Shown: positions 13,036 to 20,547 of the stretch, piece after piece
Position numbering within the stretch: the first letter of the stretch is position 1
Layout: the number at the start of each line of letters is the position of its first letter
Origin: Flavobacteriales bacterium
Lineage (GTDB): Bacteria > Bacteroidota > Bacteroidia > Flavobacteriales_E > Vicingaceae
DNA: 64,000 nucleotides
NCBI GenBank assembly: GCA_015075325.1
Contig: JABTUP010000001.1
Coordinates: forward strand, 62,001 to 126,000
Direction: 5' to 3'
Made by a program: the position numbers and the translations under genes
Notes under the pieces: generated by a model
Databases searched by the model: none
Told to the model about the DNA's origin: nothing
Seen by the model: only the letters and a program-made list of their open reading frames with translations

Positions 13036-14322
13036 ATGATAAAATTTGAAAAATTTGAACTAAAAAATGGTTTAAAAGTTATTGTACACCAAGATGAAAC
13101 TACACCAATTGTAGCCTTTAATTTATTATACAATGTTGGAGCAAGAGATGAAGATGAAAACAAAACTGGATTTGCTCATTTATTTGAACACTTGATGTTT
13201 GGTGGTTCGGTAAACATTCCAAACTTTGATGAGCCGCTTCAATTTGTTGGTGGAGATAATAATGCATTTACTTCTAATGACATTACCAATTACTACATTA
13301 CTGTTCCTAAAAACAATCTCGAAACTGCTTTTTGGTTAGAATCAGACCGTATGCTAAGCCTCGCTTTTACCGAAAAAAGTTTAGAAGTTCAGCGTCAGGT
13401 GGTTATTGAAGAATTTAAACAAACTTGTTTAAATCAACCTTATGGTGATGTTTGGTCGTTGTTACGTCCCATGGTTTACAAAAAACATCCTTATCAATGG
13501 GCTACTATTGGAAAAGAAATTGCTCACATTGAAAATGCAACAATGAACGATGTGAAAGCCTTTTTCTTTAAACACTATTTACCTTGTAATGCAATACTTA
13601 GCATTGCTGGAAATGTAACTACCAAAGAAATAAAAGCTTTATCAGAAAAATGGTTCGGAAATATTCCTTCTGGTGAAAAACCGTTAAGAAATATACCTTT
13701 AGAGCCCATACAAACAGAAGAACGAAGGTTGCGAGTAGAAAGAGATGTTCCGGCAAATGCAATTTTTAAAGCTTTTAGAATGTGCAAAAAGACCGATGAC
13801 GAATTTTACGCGACCGATTTATTAAGTGATATTTTATCGAACGGAAGTAGTGCAAGATTATATCAGGCATTGGTAAAAAACAACCCTCTTTTTAGCGAAA
13901 TTAGTGCTTACGTAATGGGAAGTTTTGATGAAGGAATGTTTATCATTAGTGGAAATTTACAAGAAAACACTTCTTTTGATGAAGCAGAGAAAGCCATTGA
14001 AAAAGAACTAGAAAACATAAAAAAAACTTTAGTTGCCGAACACGAACTTACCAAAGTGAAAAACAAAATAATTTCTTCGCACGAATTTGCCGAAACCAGT
14101 GTACTAAACAAAGCCATGAATTTAGCTATAGCCGAACTTCTAGGCGATGCCAACGATGTGAATTTCGAAAATGAAAAATACTCAAAAGTTACTCCTGAGG
14201 ATATTAATAAGGTTGCTAAGAAAATTCTTGTTTCAACAAACTGCTCAACTTTAATTTATGCGAAAAAGACCGAAGTTGGAAGTCAGAAGACCGAAGTTAA
14301 AAAACAAATCACTAACAACTAA
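13036..14322 (+). CDS. M16 family zinc metallopeptidase (catalytic partner)
   Basis: Pitrilysin/processing-peptidase-like protein (428 aa) carrying the inverted zinc motif HLFEH (48-52) and a downstream Glu-rich helix (VIEEF near 119-123). It belongs to the two-chain M16B type, in which an active chain pairs with an inactive one; the inactive partner is encoded 9 bp downstream. No signal peptide is visible, so a cytoplasmic role is likely. The last about 18 residues (KTEVGSQKTEVKKQITNN) do not look like M16 sequence. They are encoded by a copy of the GACCGAAG repeat followed by a TAATAATTA-type repeat, which supplies the stop codon. Confidence 0.92.
   Translation: MIKFEKFELKNGLKVIVHQDETTPIVAFNLLYNVGARDEDENKTGFAHLFEHLMFGGSVNIPNFDEPLQFVGGDNNAFTSNDITNYYITVPKNNLETAFWLESDRMLSLAFTEKSLEVQRQVVIEEFKQTCLNQPYGDVWSLLRPMVYKKHPYQWATIGKEIAHIENATMNDVKAFFFKHYLPCNAILSIAGNVTTKEIKALSEKWFGNIPSGEKPLRNIPLEPIQTEERRLRVERDVPANAIFKAFRMCKKTDDEFYATDLLSDILSNGSSARLYQALVKNNPLFSEISAYVMGSFDEGMFIISGNLQENTSFDEAEKAIEKELENIKKTLVAEHELTKVKNKIISSHEFAETSVLNKAMNLAIAELLGDANDVNFENEKYSKVTPEDINKVAKKILVSTNCSTLIYAKKTEVGSQKTEVKKQITNN
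14268..14298. repeat. GACCGAAG repeat within the M16 peptidase C-terminus
   Basis: Two copies of GACCGAAGTT (14268-14277 and 14289-14298) flank GGAAGTCAGAA. The reverse-complement relative lies at 18626-18660, where it forms the end of the GNAT gene. The repeat is in frame and encodes KTEVGSQKTEV. Confidence 0.7.
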
Positions 14323-16757: not shown

Positions 16758-18542
16758 TTAATAACAATATTTGTTTTCTGTAATTAATTTTTCGGCAATT
16801 CTTCTACGTGCATCTTTAATATTTAATGGTTGTTGTTTGGTAAAACGTTTAACTCCCATTTGCATAATTCGTAATTCATCTCCTTCAACAAACGAGTTGA
16901 TAGCATCTTTTGCACATTTGTTAATTTTATCAGCAGCATCATAAATATAAACGCTCATCAAATCCATTTGTAAAGCTATTTCTTCTTTTGATTTGGTTGA
17001 AGCCAATTTTTGAACTCTCAACAATACTGATTCTGCAACATAAGCTTCAATAATCATATCGGATATGTTCATCAAAATTTCTTGTTCTTTTGCCAATTGC
17101 ATCATTAATTTTTGAGCAGCAGCACCAGCAACCATTAATATTGCTTTTTTAAAGTTTTTTATTTGAACATGAGCTAATTCAAAAACATCATCTGAAGCTG
17201 CTCCAAAATCAGGAATACTCATCAATTCTTTAGCAACAGCTTGTGCTGGACCCATTAAATCCAATTCACCTTTCATGGCTTTTTTTAACAGCATATCAAC
17301 GATTAACATTCTGTTGATTTCGTTAGTACCTTCAAATATACGGTTGATACGGGCATCTCTATAAGCTCTTTCTACTGGTGCTTCGGCAGAATAACCCATA
17401 CCTCCAAAAATTTGAACTGATTCATCAACCACATAATCTAATACTTCAGAACCATGAACTTTTAAAATAGCTGCCTCAGCTGCAAATTGTCGAATACCTT
17501 CTAATGTTGCTTTTTGCTTATCCATGCCCTCACCAACTAAAGCTGAAATGGCATCATCAATATTTTGACTACAACGGTAAGTTGCTGCTTCAGAAGCATA
17601 AACTCTTATAGCTTGTTCGGCTATTTTGTATTTAATAGCTCCGTATTTAGAAATTGAACGACCAAATTGCTCTCTTTCGTTTGCATATTTTACCGACTCG
17701 TTAATTGCTCTTTTTGCACCACCAATAGCAGCTCCAGCCAATTTAACTCTACCAATATTTAAAATGTTTAGAGCAATTTTAAATCCTTCTTGTCTTTCGC
17801 CTAATAGATTCTCAACAGGCACTTTGCAATCGTTAAAAAATACTTGACGAGTTGAAGAGCCTTTAATACCCATTTTCTTTTCTTCTGGGTTTAAAGATAT
17901 TCCGCCAAATGTTTTCTCAACGATAAATGCGGAAAGGTTTTCATCGTTATCAATTTTAGCAAAAACAGTATATACATCGGCAAATCCACCGTTGGTAATC
18001 CACATTTTTTGTCCGTTTAACACATAATGCTTTCCATCAGCACTCAACACAGCTTTTGTTTTTCCCGAATTAGCATCAGAACCAGAACCCGGCTCAGTTA
18101 AACAATAAGCTGCTTTCCATTCACCAGAGGCTAATTTTGGTATGTAGTTTTGTTTTTGAGTTTCGTTACCGTAATATAAAATTGGCAAAGTTCCAATTCC
18201 TGTGTGTGCCGAAATTGATACTGCAAAAGAGTAACTTCCACCTAAAACCTCTGTTGTAAGCATGCTGGTTACAAAGTTTTTACCGAAACCGCCCAATTCT
18301 TCAGGAACTGAAATTCCTAAAAGACCTAATTCTCCAGCTTTTTCGAGTAATGATGGAGTATAACCTTCTTCTAGTTTTTCAATACGTTCAATATTTGGAA
18401 GAATTTCTTGCTCAACAAAATCATTACAAGTTGCCGCAATCATTTGTTGTTCTTCATCAAATTGTTCTGGTATAAATACTGAATTTGGGTCAGTTTCTTT
18501 GATTAAAAACTCCCCACCTTTTAAAGTGTTTTTGTTTTCCAT
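16758..18542 (-). CDS. fadE: Acyl-CoA dehydrogenase (fadE type, 594 aa)
   Basis: FAD-dependent first enzyme of fatty acid beta-oxidation, introducing the trans-2 double bond in acyl-CoA. N-terminal helical domain, FAD/substrate region CLTEPGSGSD (147-156) and WITNGG, then the C-terminal helical domain with the catalytic glutamate in IFEGTNEI (E404). A C-terminal extension of about 150 residues gives 594 aa, matching Bacillus FadE rather than the about 380-aa short-chain enzymes. It lies in a fadN-fadA-GNAT-fadE order on one strand and electrons would pass to ETF. The downstream SiaC-like gene is close. Confidence 0.93.
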   Translation of the reverse strand: MENKNTLKGGEFLIKETDPNSVFIPEQFDEEQQMIAATCNDFVEQEILPNIERIEKLEEGYTPSLLEKAGELGLLGISVPEELGGFGKNFVTSMLTTEVLGGSYSFAVSISAHTGIGTLPILYYGNETQKQNYIPKLASGEWKAAYCLTEPGSGSDANSGKTKAVLSADGKHYVLNGQKMWITNGGFADVYTVFAKIDNDENLSAFIVEKTFGGISLNPEEKKMGIKGSSTRQVFFNDCKVPVENLLGERQEGFKIALNILNIGRVKLAGAAIGGAKRAINESVKYANEREQFGRSISKYGAIKYKIAEQAIRVYASEAATYRCSQNIDDAISALVGEGMDKQKATLEGIRQFAAEAAILKVHGSEVLDYVVDESVQIFGGMGYSAEAPVERAYRDARINRIFEGTNEINRMLIVDMLLKKAMKGELDLMGPAQAVAKELMSIPDFGAASDDVFELAHVQIKNFKKAILMVAGAAAQKLMMQLAKEQEILMNISDMIIEAYVAESVLLRVQKLASTKSKEEIALQMDLMSVYIYDAADKINKCAKDAINSFVEGDELRIMQMGVKRFTKQQPLNIKDARRRIAEKLITENKYCY

Positions 18543-18625: not shown

Positions 18626-18660
18626 ATCTTCGGTCTTCCGACTTCAAACTTCCAACTTTT
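18626..18660. repeat. GACCGAAG repeat (inverse copy) at the GNAT 3' end
   Basis: On the minus strand it reads AAAAGTTGGAAGTTTGAAG followed by TCGGAAGACCGAAGAT. It resembles 14268-14298. The GNAT stop codon (TGA, 18646-18644) lies inside this element. Confidence 0.7.
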
Positions 18661-19138
18661 TATACATTAACTTATGTTTTCCAATCATAGGCACTTCGTA
18701 AAAATCACCAAGTATGTTAAATCCCATTTTCTCGTAAAACCCAATCGCCACTTCTCTTGCATCGCACCACAACAACTCTACCTCTTTATTTTTTAATTCC
18801 TTTAAAGCAAAATCAATTACTTCTTTACCAAAATTTTCTCCTCTTACTTTAGGTGAAGTTGCCATTGCTCGTAATCGGTATTGGTATTTTTCTTCAAATT
18901 TTTCGTTTTGCTGAACTAAAAAAGTTCCTACCGAAACTAGTTCTCCATTTTTAAAAGCCCCAACATGAAATGTAGTTTCTATTTCATCTATATCTAATCC
19001 ACATTCCTCTAGGTTATTCTTGTGTTGCCACAATACTTCTAACCTCAGCGGATAAGTTTGTTTTGATTGAATAAACGAAGCCCCCTTTAATCCCCCGAAG
19101 GGGGAATTGCCTAACACACATTGCCTATTATTCATCAT
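18644..19138 (-). CDS. GNAT family N-acetyltransferase
   Basis: A 164-aa GCN5-related acetyltransferase that uses acetyl-CoA on an unknown amine. The fold is recognisable from about residue 28: YPLRLEVLW, FHVGAFKNGELVSVGTF, the RAMATSPKVRGENFG acetyl-CoA loop (about 97-111), and LWCDAREVAIGFYEKMGF. Residues about 8-21 (LGNSPFGGLKGA) come from a CCCCC-GAA-GGGGG repeat in the DNA, and the C-terminal KKLEV plus stop come from a GACCGAAG repeat. Both termini are therefore repeat-derived. No alternative ATG follows the repeat before the domain, so ATG 19138 (or 19135) is kept. It sits inside the beta-oxidation cluster but has no obvious link to that pathway. Confidence 0.8.
   Translation of the reverse strand: MMNNRQCVLGNSPFGGLKGASFIQSKQTYPLRLEVLWQHKNNLEECGLDIDEIETTFHVGAFKNGELVSVGTFLVQQNEKFEEKYQYRLRAMATSPKVRGENFGKEVIDFALKELKNKEVELLWCDAREVAIGFYEKMGFNILGDFYEVPMIGKHKLMYKKLEV
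19081..19107. repeat. CCCCC-GAA-GGGGG repeat inside the GNAT N-terminus
   Basis: CCCCCTTTAATCCCCCGAAG followed by GGGGAA, with a perfect 5-bp C/G stem around GAA (19092-19104). It is related in style to the larger C/G-rich elements at 19165 and 20489 and is translated in frame as NSPFGGLKGA. Confidence 0.75.
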
Positions 19139-19164: not shown

Positions 19165-19226
19165 CCCACCTCAATCCTCACTCAAGAGAGGACTTTAGCC
19201 CCTCCTTCGGAGGGGTTGGGGAGGCT
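19165..19226. repeat. C/G-rich interspersed repeat, copy 1
   Basis: A 62-bp element starting CCCACCTCAATCCTC and ending GGTTGGGGAGGCT, between fadA and the GNAT gene. It contains a perfect stem CCCCTCC-TTC-GGAGGGG (19199-19215). Nearly the same element occurs at 20489-20547. Its base composition is far from the AT-rich surroundings. Confidence 0.85.
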
Positions 19227-19227
19227 T

Positions 19228-20403
19228 TTACAACATTTCATAAATACCAGCAGCACCTTGCCCAGTCCCAACACACATAGTTACCATTCCGTATTTTTGT
19301 TTTCTTCTTTTTAGCTCATTAAAAATTTGAACAGAAAGTTTAGCCCCAGTACAAGCCAATGGATGACCTAAAGCAATTGCACCACCATTTACATTTACTT
19401 TATTGGTATCTAATCCTAAGCCTTTTATAACTGCCAACGATTGAGATGCAAATGCTTCGTTCAATTCAAATAAATCAATATTGTCTTGTTTTAAACCTGC
19501 ATGTTTTAAAACTGCTGGAATTGCTGTTAATGGACCAACACCCATAATTCTTGGCTCTAAACCAACTACTTGATACGAAACTAAACGAGCTATTGGTTTA
19601 ATGTTTAACTCTTTTACCATTCGCTCCGACATTACCATCACAAAAGCTGCTCCATCTGAAGTTTGTGACGAATTTCCAGCTGTAACACTACCTCCAGCTG
19701 CAAAAACAGGCTTTAAACTTGACAAAGCTTCAACTGTTGTTCCTCTTCTCGGTCCTTCATCAGTATCAACTATATATTTTTTTGAATGTCTTTTGTTATC
19801 TTCCCCAACAAAAATTTCTTCTACTTCTACAGGAACAATATCATCTTTAAACAAACCATTATCTATAGCATTTAAAGCTCTTCTGTGCGATTCGTATGCA
19901 AATGCATCTTGCTCCTCTCGAGATATTTTAAAATCGTTAGCCACCGCTTCTGCTGTTAAGCCCATTCCCCAATAATAATCAGGATTTTCTTTGGCAACTT
20001 TAGCATTTGGAACTATTCTCCAACCACCAAAAGGAATCGGACTCATCGTCTCAACGCCACCTGCAATAATACAATCTGCCATACCAGCATTAATTTGTGC
20101 TGAAGCAATGGCAATGGTTTGTATACCCGACGAACAATAACGATTTACCGTCATACCTGGTACTTTAACCGAATCCAAGCCCATCATCGATATCATTCTA
20201 CCAATGTTTAGTCCTTGCTCTGCCTCTGGAGTTGCATTACCAACTATTACATCGTTAATTCGTTCTTTGTCTAATTGAGGAAAATCCTCCATTAATCTTT
20301 TAATTACAGCTGCACTTAAATCGTCTGGTCGTGTAAACCTAAACAATCCTCGAGGTGCTTTACCTACTGCTGTTCTGTAACCTGCTACTATATATGCGTC
20401 CAT
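19228..20403 (-). CDS. fadA: Acetyl-CoA C-acyltransferase (thiolase)
   Basis: Last enzyme of beta-oxidation (391 aa), cleaving 3-ketoacyl-CoA with CoA. The acyl-accepting cysteine is in VNRYCSSG (C90), with the catalytic His in GGAIALGHPLACTGA and the second Cys in MCVGTGQG near the C-terminus. The frame extends to 20436 through a C/G-rich repeat using a non-ATG start; ATG 20403, giving MDAYIVAGYR, is the natural start. Upstream is fadN and downstream GNAT and fadE. The intergenic gaps are occupied by interspersed repeats rather than by promoters I can recognise, so one transcript is plausible. Confidence 0.94.
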   Translation of the reverse strand: MDAYIVAGYRTAVGKAPRGLFRFTRPDDLSAAVIKRLMEDFPQLDKERINDVIVGNATPEAEQGLNIGRMISMMGLDSVKVPGMTVNRYCSSGIQTIAIASAQINAGMADCIIAGGVETMSPIPFGGWRIVPNAKVAKENPDYYWGMGLTAEAVANDFKISREEQDAFAYESHRRALNAIDNGLFKDDIVPVEVEEIFVGEDNKRHSKKYIVDTDEGPRRGTTVEALSSLKPVFAAGGSVTAGNSSQTSDGAAFVMVMSERMVKELNIKPIARLVSYQVVGLEPRIMGVGPLTAIPAVLKHAGLKQDNIDLFELNEAFASQSLAVIKGLGLDTNKVNVNGGAIALGHPLACTGAKLSVQIFNELKRRKQKYGMVTMCVGTGQGAAGIYEML

Positions 20404-20417
20404 ATTTTTGATATTTG

Positions 20418-20446
20418 CCCACCCCAACCCTCCCAAAGGGAGGGAG
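20418..20446. repeat. C/G-rich interspersed repeat, short copy
   Basis: CCCACCCCAACCCTCCCAAA followed by GGGAGGGAG, with a CCTCCC-AAA-GGGAGG stem. It lies just upstream of the fadA start and was translated into the spurious extension of that frame. Confidence 0.75.
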
Positions 20447-20488: not shown

Positions 20489-20547
20489 CCCACCTCAATC
20501 CTCCCTCAAGGGAGGACTGCCCCTCCTTCGGAGGGGTTGGGGAGGCT
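20489..20547. repeat. C/G-rich interspersed repeat, copy 2
   Basis: A 59-bp element highly similar to 19165-19226. It has CTCCCTCAAGGGAGG and then the perfect CCCCTCC-TTC-GGAGGGG stem (20520-20536). It separates fadN from fadA and ends 2 bp before the fadN stop. Confidence 0.85.

Follow-up and report, generated by a model that had tools for sequence, protein, structure and literature searches.

Palindromes translated within Bacteroidota proteins: probable ends or scars of a homing-like DUF559 nuclease element

Short GC-rich palindromes that are read in frame within proteins of a Vicingaceae-like (Flavobacteriales) genome are probably the ends, or the scars, of a homing-like nuclease element that puts up with being translated rather than being spliced out. 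At the level of sequence, this reading draws on the bracketing of a nuclease by palindromes, in-frame insertion, an allelic series, nuclease lineages bound to their sites, and purifying selection, all of which the comparisons below show. The window – the whole 64,000-nucleotide stretch of DNA that was analysed – holds such a palindrome at the start of a GNAT acetyltransferase gene, and this palindrome is one of dozens in the genome.

The GNAT open reading frame (ORF; 164 aa) is real, intact and under purifying selection. The Pfam model Acetyltransf_1 matches it with 44.2 bits, above the curated cut-off of 20.7; nothing in NCBIfam exceeded its cut-off on this protein, and a search of the window with Rfam gathering thresholds returned zero matches. 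The dN/dS values (Table 1; 142–143 codons compared) indicate that the gene is kept for its function. Orthologues with the same two neighbours are present in the same family, and those that had been suggested for comparison, lacking the palindrome, do exist: they begin with M and a few residues, followed by VKII or similar. Since SFIQSKQTYPLR of the GNAT protein aligns with VKIITTKETYPLR, the conserved fold begins at about residue 21–23, and not near residue 28 as the initial annotation had it. Residues ~11–19 (NSPFGGLKG) match the palindrome and are the in-frame translation of CCCCCTTCGGGGG...GGGGG, as had been proposed. The in-frame start-type codons are ATG1, ATG2 and GTG8, all 5' of the repeat; 3' of it there is indeed no ATG, the next start-type codon being TTG36, and initiation there would cost T28, L31, R32, L33 and V35, which are invariant in the seven aligned sequences. 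Given the lack of a plausible later start, together with purifying selection, there is good support for the earlier claim that any use of the gene entails translation of the repeat.

Table 1. Positions within the window of the GNAT gene, its neighbours and the associated repeats.
Feature	Position	Strand	Remarks
GNAT acetyltransferase gene	18644..19138	-	ORF; Pfam PF00583 E 2.7e-11; dN/dS 0.05-0.20 vs six orthologues
Upstream neighbour, thiolase-like ORF	19228..20436	-	syntenic in relatives; name by eye from sequence
Downstream neighbour, acyl-CoA dehydrogenase-like ORF	16758..18542	-	syntenic in relatives; name by eye from sequence
Palindromic element GCCCCCTTTAATCCCCCGAAGGGGGAATTG	19080..19109	.	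read on - strand as NSPFGGLKG, directly before first conserved GNAT strand; orthologues lacking it exist
Hairpin core CCCCCGAAGGGGG	19092..19104	.	
Second palindromic unit, CCCCTCCTTCGGAGGGG core 19199-19215	19197..19226	.	in thiolase-GNAT spacer
Third palindromic unit, imperfect, CCACCTCAATCCTCACTCAAGAGAGGAC	19166..19193	.	in thiolase-GNAT spacer
GAAGNNN heptad array	18628..18655	-	provides GNAT stop codon (18644-18646) and residues LEV

The initial annotation took both ends of the gene to be made by repeats. This holds for the N-terminal palindrome and, at the other end, for LEV and the stop codon; the remainder of the terminal KKLEV is not convincingly repeat-derived, because orthologues too run HKLMYK(K/R) at that place. 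The GAAGNNN heptad array is a repeat separate from the palindrome, and it contributes the stop codon plus roughly three residues. Counts of the GAAG pattern were 69 in the forward and 70 in the reverse direction, a comparison that is void as a control since the pattern is identical to its own reverse. A second gene end is made from this repeat: the C-terminus of the ORF at 13036–14322 (+), KKTEVGSQKTEVKKQITNN, also runs through a GAAG heptad array. Three more palindromes (20428–20444, 20499–20516 and 20520–20536) cluster at the start of the thiolase-like ORF and in the spacer before it.

Across the genome the pattern CCCCN{3,10}GGGG has 108 matches, and its reversed control has 17 (a run of five C or G contributes two counts). 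In the window and in fetched stretches 46 places were read, not all of them elements; a full reading followed for 13 places in 10 ORFs: RecG (2), PolA, MetH (2), a SpoIIE-domain protein, LeuS (2) and MetG, plus four ORF ends (MurG-like, MurD-like and two enoyl-CoA-hydratase-like). Pfam names six of these 10 ORFs and the other names were given by eye. Several palindromes lie in frame inside the conserved genes RecG, MetH, LeuS, PolA and MetG; at the MetG insert the alignment to the solved structure 1rqg breaks. One match, CCCCTTGTTATGGGG (L108), looks like native coding sequence and was discarded as an element. That the palindromes are stop-free in every frame is only partly true: 12 of 42 copies (each taken as the core with 8 nt on either side) are open in all six frames, with a mean of 4.62, as against an average of 3.4–3.5 for random stretches of the window. 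Of the copies at the GNAT locus, the two in the spacer are open in six frames and the GNAT copy itself in four.

The palindromes keep company with a nuclease. In RecG of this genome two of them bracket an in-frame DUF559 (Vsr-like nuclease) domain, and residues 417–566 (150 residues, DUF559 included) are missing from the solved structure 1gm5. DUF559 is present in 29 of 60 genomes, among them the window genome with three copies; it is present in all 11 of the 60 genomes in which the palindrome excess is at least 10. For 54 DUF559 loci – the best 57 of 72 matches listed (the 15 weakest omitted), less three with under 150 nt of flank – a perfect GC palindrome lies within 200 nt upstream in 30, downstream in 36, on either side in 44 and on both in 22, one flank with masked bases being scored as palindrome-less; control windows of the same loci contain one in 35 of 1202 cases (about 3%). 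A second set of 40 loci came from a phylum-wide search in which 161 of 395 genomes matched at E 1e-15, and from which mainly long open frames were picked: 37 of the 39 listed frames of at least 600 aa (two in genomes already used were excluded) and three shorter ones, DUF559 open frames of this length occurring in at least 36 genomes. Here the counts were 27 upstream, 24 downstream, 31 on either side and 20 on both (controls: 39 of 1238); the loci in both sets are related to one another, and the significance of either result is therefore overstated. Windows placed at gene boundaries contain a palindrome more often (25 of 250 and 26 of 336, or 8–10%), and the DUF559 excess stays large. For DUF559 loci inside genes the counts with a palindrome were 12 and 12 of 16, then 24 and 21 of 37. 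By the strict rule 10 of the 54 and nine of the 40 loci are palindrome-less.

Individual loci vary in layout. In two (L219 in G025 and L231 in G034) DUF559 lies in frame at the C-terminal end of ORFs of 588 and 529 aa, after palindromes. In another (L233, G056) a palindrome-coded stretch, IPLTPFFKGEEQEVT, is repeated in tandem and in frame 3' of DUF559, and a 1321-aa ORF (L236, G025) contains TTQPQSGVVH several times directly before the domain.

The GNAT site itself varies among relatives. The spacer between the thiolase stop and the GNAT residues TYPLR is short in five orthologues (43–65 nt) and longer in G029 (123 nt), the window (170 nt) and G025 (624 nt). A complete unit occupies the spacer of G025: a DUF559 gene with inverted palindromic ends, the stop of which overlaps the GNAT start (ATGA), so that the right end of the unit encodes the first GNAT residues. 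In G029 only the right end is found at GNAT and the nuclease is absent, while the window has palindromes only. A near-identical copy of the second palindromic unit of the window is found after the thiolase stop in G025. The GNAT palindrome of the window differs from those of G025 and G029 in its orientation and precise position, and G001, a sister genome, has none: these are not the same event, and the window copy is a separate event or a rearranged one. In G025 (L005, L216) both ends of the GNAT protein are palindrome-made: it begins with MKEFTTNIQHTPNPSQEGKAA, and LPNPSEGG lies close to its C-terminus.

Within genes a similar series of states is seen. Pfam confirms in-frame DUF559 in RecG, an IleS-like synthetase, RecJ, a TsaD-family protein, CoA-transferase III, HsdR, HsdM, methylmalonyl-CoA mutase, a UvrD-like helicase and an Eco57I-type methylase. 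Judged by junction motif, identical sites in RecG, MetH and LeuS are occupied again in distant families, and several insertions directly precede a conserved motif (TATPIPRT in RecG, ATVKGDVHDIG in MetH). That some carriers are single-contig genomes (G159, G254, G087, G292 and G188) speaks against assembly error. The RecG site is filled by DUF559 in three of 21 regions read (the other nine of 30 fetched loci are DUF559 in other hosts). At the MetH site, readable by its motif in 20 of 30 fetched loci, 17 are empty, one has a single palindrome (G034), one has two (the window genome) and one has the full unit (G025); between the two palindromes of the window genome lies GGAYNSY, which resembles GGAFDSY inside the unit. 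One LeuS site has a bare palindrome in the window genome and DUF559 in G050, G136 and G194; the SpoIIE-domain site has a bare palindrome in the window genome and DUF559 in G043. The comparison with relatives was confined to palindromes other than those at LeuS residue 847, PolA and MetG.

The nuclease has features of a homing enzyme. Residues D52, E63 and D65, which we take to be catalytic, are invariant along with other residues in 14 of 14 in-gene DUF559 domains. An AlphaFold model of the domain (pLDDT 87.6) matches 3hrl (E 5.6e-7), the Vsr-like homing endonuclease I-Bth0305I (3r3p; E 7.6e-5, TM-score by target length 0.75) and Vsr (1vsr; E 0.026); as modelled, the fold is homing-endonuclease-like. 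A tree of 64 domains, in which 26 of 61 forks are open, tracks the insertion site: six changes suffice, compared to a mean of 20.6 and a lowest value of 17 among 200 shuffles, the host labels being assigned by eye on the basis of junction motifs (RecG and nine further DUF559-bearing hosts were named by Pfam). The RecG-borne domains form one side of a branch (support 98/93), although an IleS-borne copy nests within. Synonymous divergence of DUF559 inside RecG is about that of RecG and so gives no support for recent homing. In a 2026 paper a DUF559 protein of Caulobacter is regarded as a Vsr-like endonuclease tied to DNA damage (PMC12907096).

These observations suggest the following element. 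When complete it would consist of a DUF559/Vsr-type PD-(D/E)XK nuclease frame bracketed by GC-rich palindromes. Between genes, its right end may furnish the start of the next gene; inside a gene, palindromes and nuclease would be translated, the former as Pro/Gly-rich linkers around an inserted domain, with neither intron nor intein. If the nuclease is lost, one or two palindromes would stay behind as a translated scar. We infer that the nuclease cuts the empty allele and that repair copies the element in; bare palindromes would then be leftovers of the element, or sequences mobilised by it, and the GNAT copy of the window may have arisen by such a route. The repeat that the initial annotation treated as an anonymous interspersed element is better read as the terminal palindrome of a DUF559 element.

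The palindromes may alternatively be independent REP-, MITE- or RPE-like elements, spread in some other way, with DUF559 later invading or preferring them and the bracketing being secondary. We consider this unlikely. It would fit the surplus of bare palindromes over DUF559 copies in this genome (108 pattern matches against three), the mild palindrome excess in three genomes that lack DUF559 (G028, G035 and G038), and a window palindrome that is not exactly where the G025 unit sits. However, DUF559 lineages follow the host site, which is unexpected were any palindrome the target; no palindrome-rich genome is without DUF559; and the double palindrome in MetH retains a unit-like interior.

A second alternative, which we hold to be very improbable, is that the GNAT palindrome is untranslated, initiation taking place at an unusual downstream start and the hairpin acting on the mRNA. 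Ribosomes could be impeded by a GC hairpin near the start of a message, and an ATT codon stands at position 23, directly after the repeat; against this, neither ATG nor GTG follows the repeat, a start at TTG36 removes conserved residues, and like palindromes in the middle of RecG, MetH, LeuS, PolA and MetG must be translated. It is scarcely credible that the palindromes owe their spread to RAYT (REP-associated Y1) transposases encoded in this genome: five PF01797 matches are present, and elsewhere in bacteria RAYTs go together with REPs (PMC3733652), but none of the five has a CCCC/GGGG palindrome of the kinds near GNAT within 400 nt, two (L150 and L151) having other palindromes upstream (CGACCCC and CTCCGCC stems) and three being without any.

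The DUF559 element, as we read it, shares features with several known systems. The REP/RAYT system likewise combines short palindromes with a nuclease gene flanked by them, and differs in its enzyme: here DUF559/Vsr-like, there a tyrosine transposase. According to PMC3733652, REPs occur inside genes, repair genes included, and one end of their palindrome has the tetranucleotide GTAG or CGTC; here GTAG follows the hairpin in some copies (for example L107, L113 and L130) and is absent at the GNAT copy. Inteins too place a nuclease in frame in essential proteins, close to conserved motifs; when 15 proteins, including 10 that carry DUF559, were scanned with Pfam, no splicing (Hint) domain was among the matches (E cut-offs 1e-5 and 1e-8), and neither intron nor intein was seen in these scans. 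With Vsr-like homing endonucleases such as I-Bth0305I the element has in common the modelled fold, the tie of nuclease lineage to sites in conserved genes, and patchy presence (three of 21 RecG and one of 20 MetH sites filled), but the DUF559 unit lies in frame within proteins or between genes and has palindromic ends: we know of no Vsr-like homing enzyme with this arrangement. Searches of open-licence papers found no description of DUF559 joined with palindromes or with in-frame insertion.

To our knowledge, the way in which short palindromes enter bacterial proteins in frame has been an open question since the description of Rickettsia palindromic elements (RPEs). These are in-frame palindromic repeats in unrelated functional genes (PMC10969869, PMC3733652), and in-frame palindromes occur here too. 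In length the two differ, RPEs measuring ~150 bp (PMC10969869) and the units described here about 30 nt. They differ also in that the present elements belong to Bacteroidota and have a nuclease-bearing form at the same sites, whereas the available portions of these sources (PMC10969869, PMC3733652) mention none for RPEs.

That units of nuclease and palindromes are read without splicing inside essential genes of many Bacteroidota suggests a selfish element hidden in working proteins. Slightly less than even chances attach, in our view, to the more general proposition that this is a splicing-free homing element in which a Vsr-like nuclease is joined to palindromic ends that encode flexible linkers, such that the unit may enter conserved genes beside catalytic motifs and the host protein survive, with nuclease-less scars giving rise to new termini and loops in proteins, the GNAT being an example. 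Since one and the same site holds nothing, one palindrome, two, or palindromes and nuclease in different genomes, the mechanism is directly testable. If true, a splicing-free homing element would show how RPEs and other in-frame palindromic elements could come about; it would account for the odd additional domains seen in RecG, MetH, LeuS and further Bacteroidota proteins, and would define where some new protein segments in selected genes come from.
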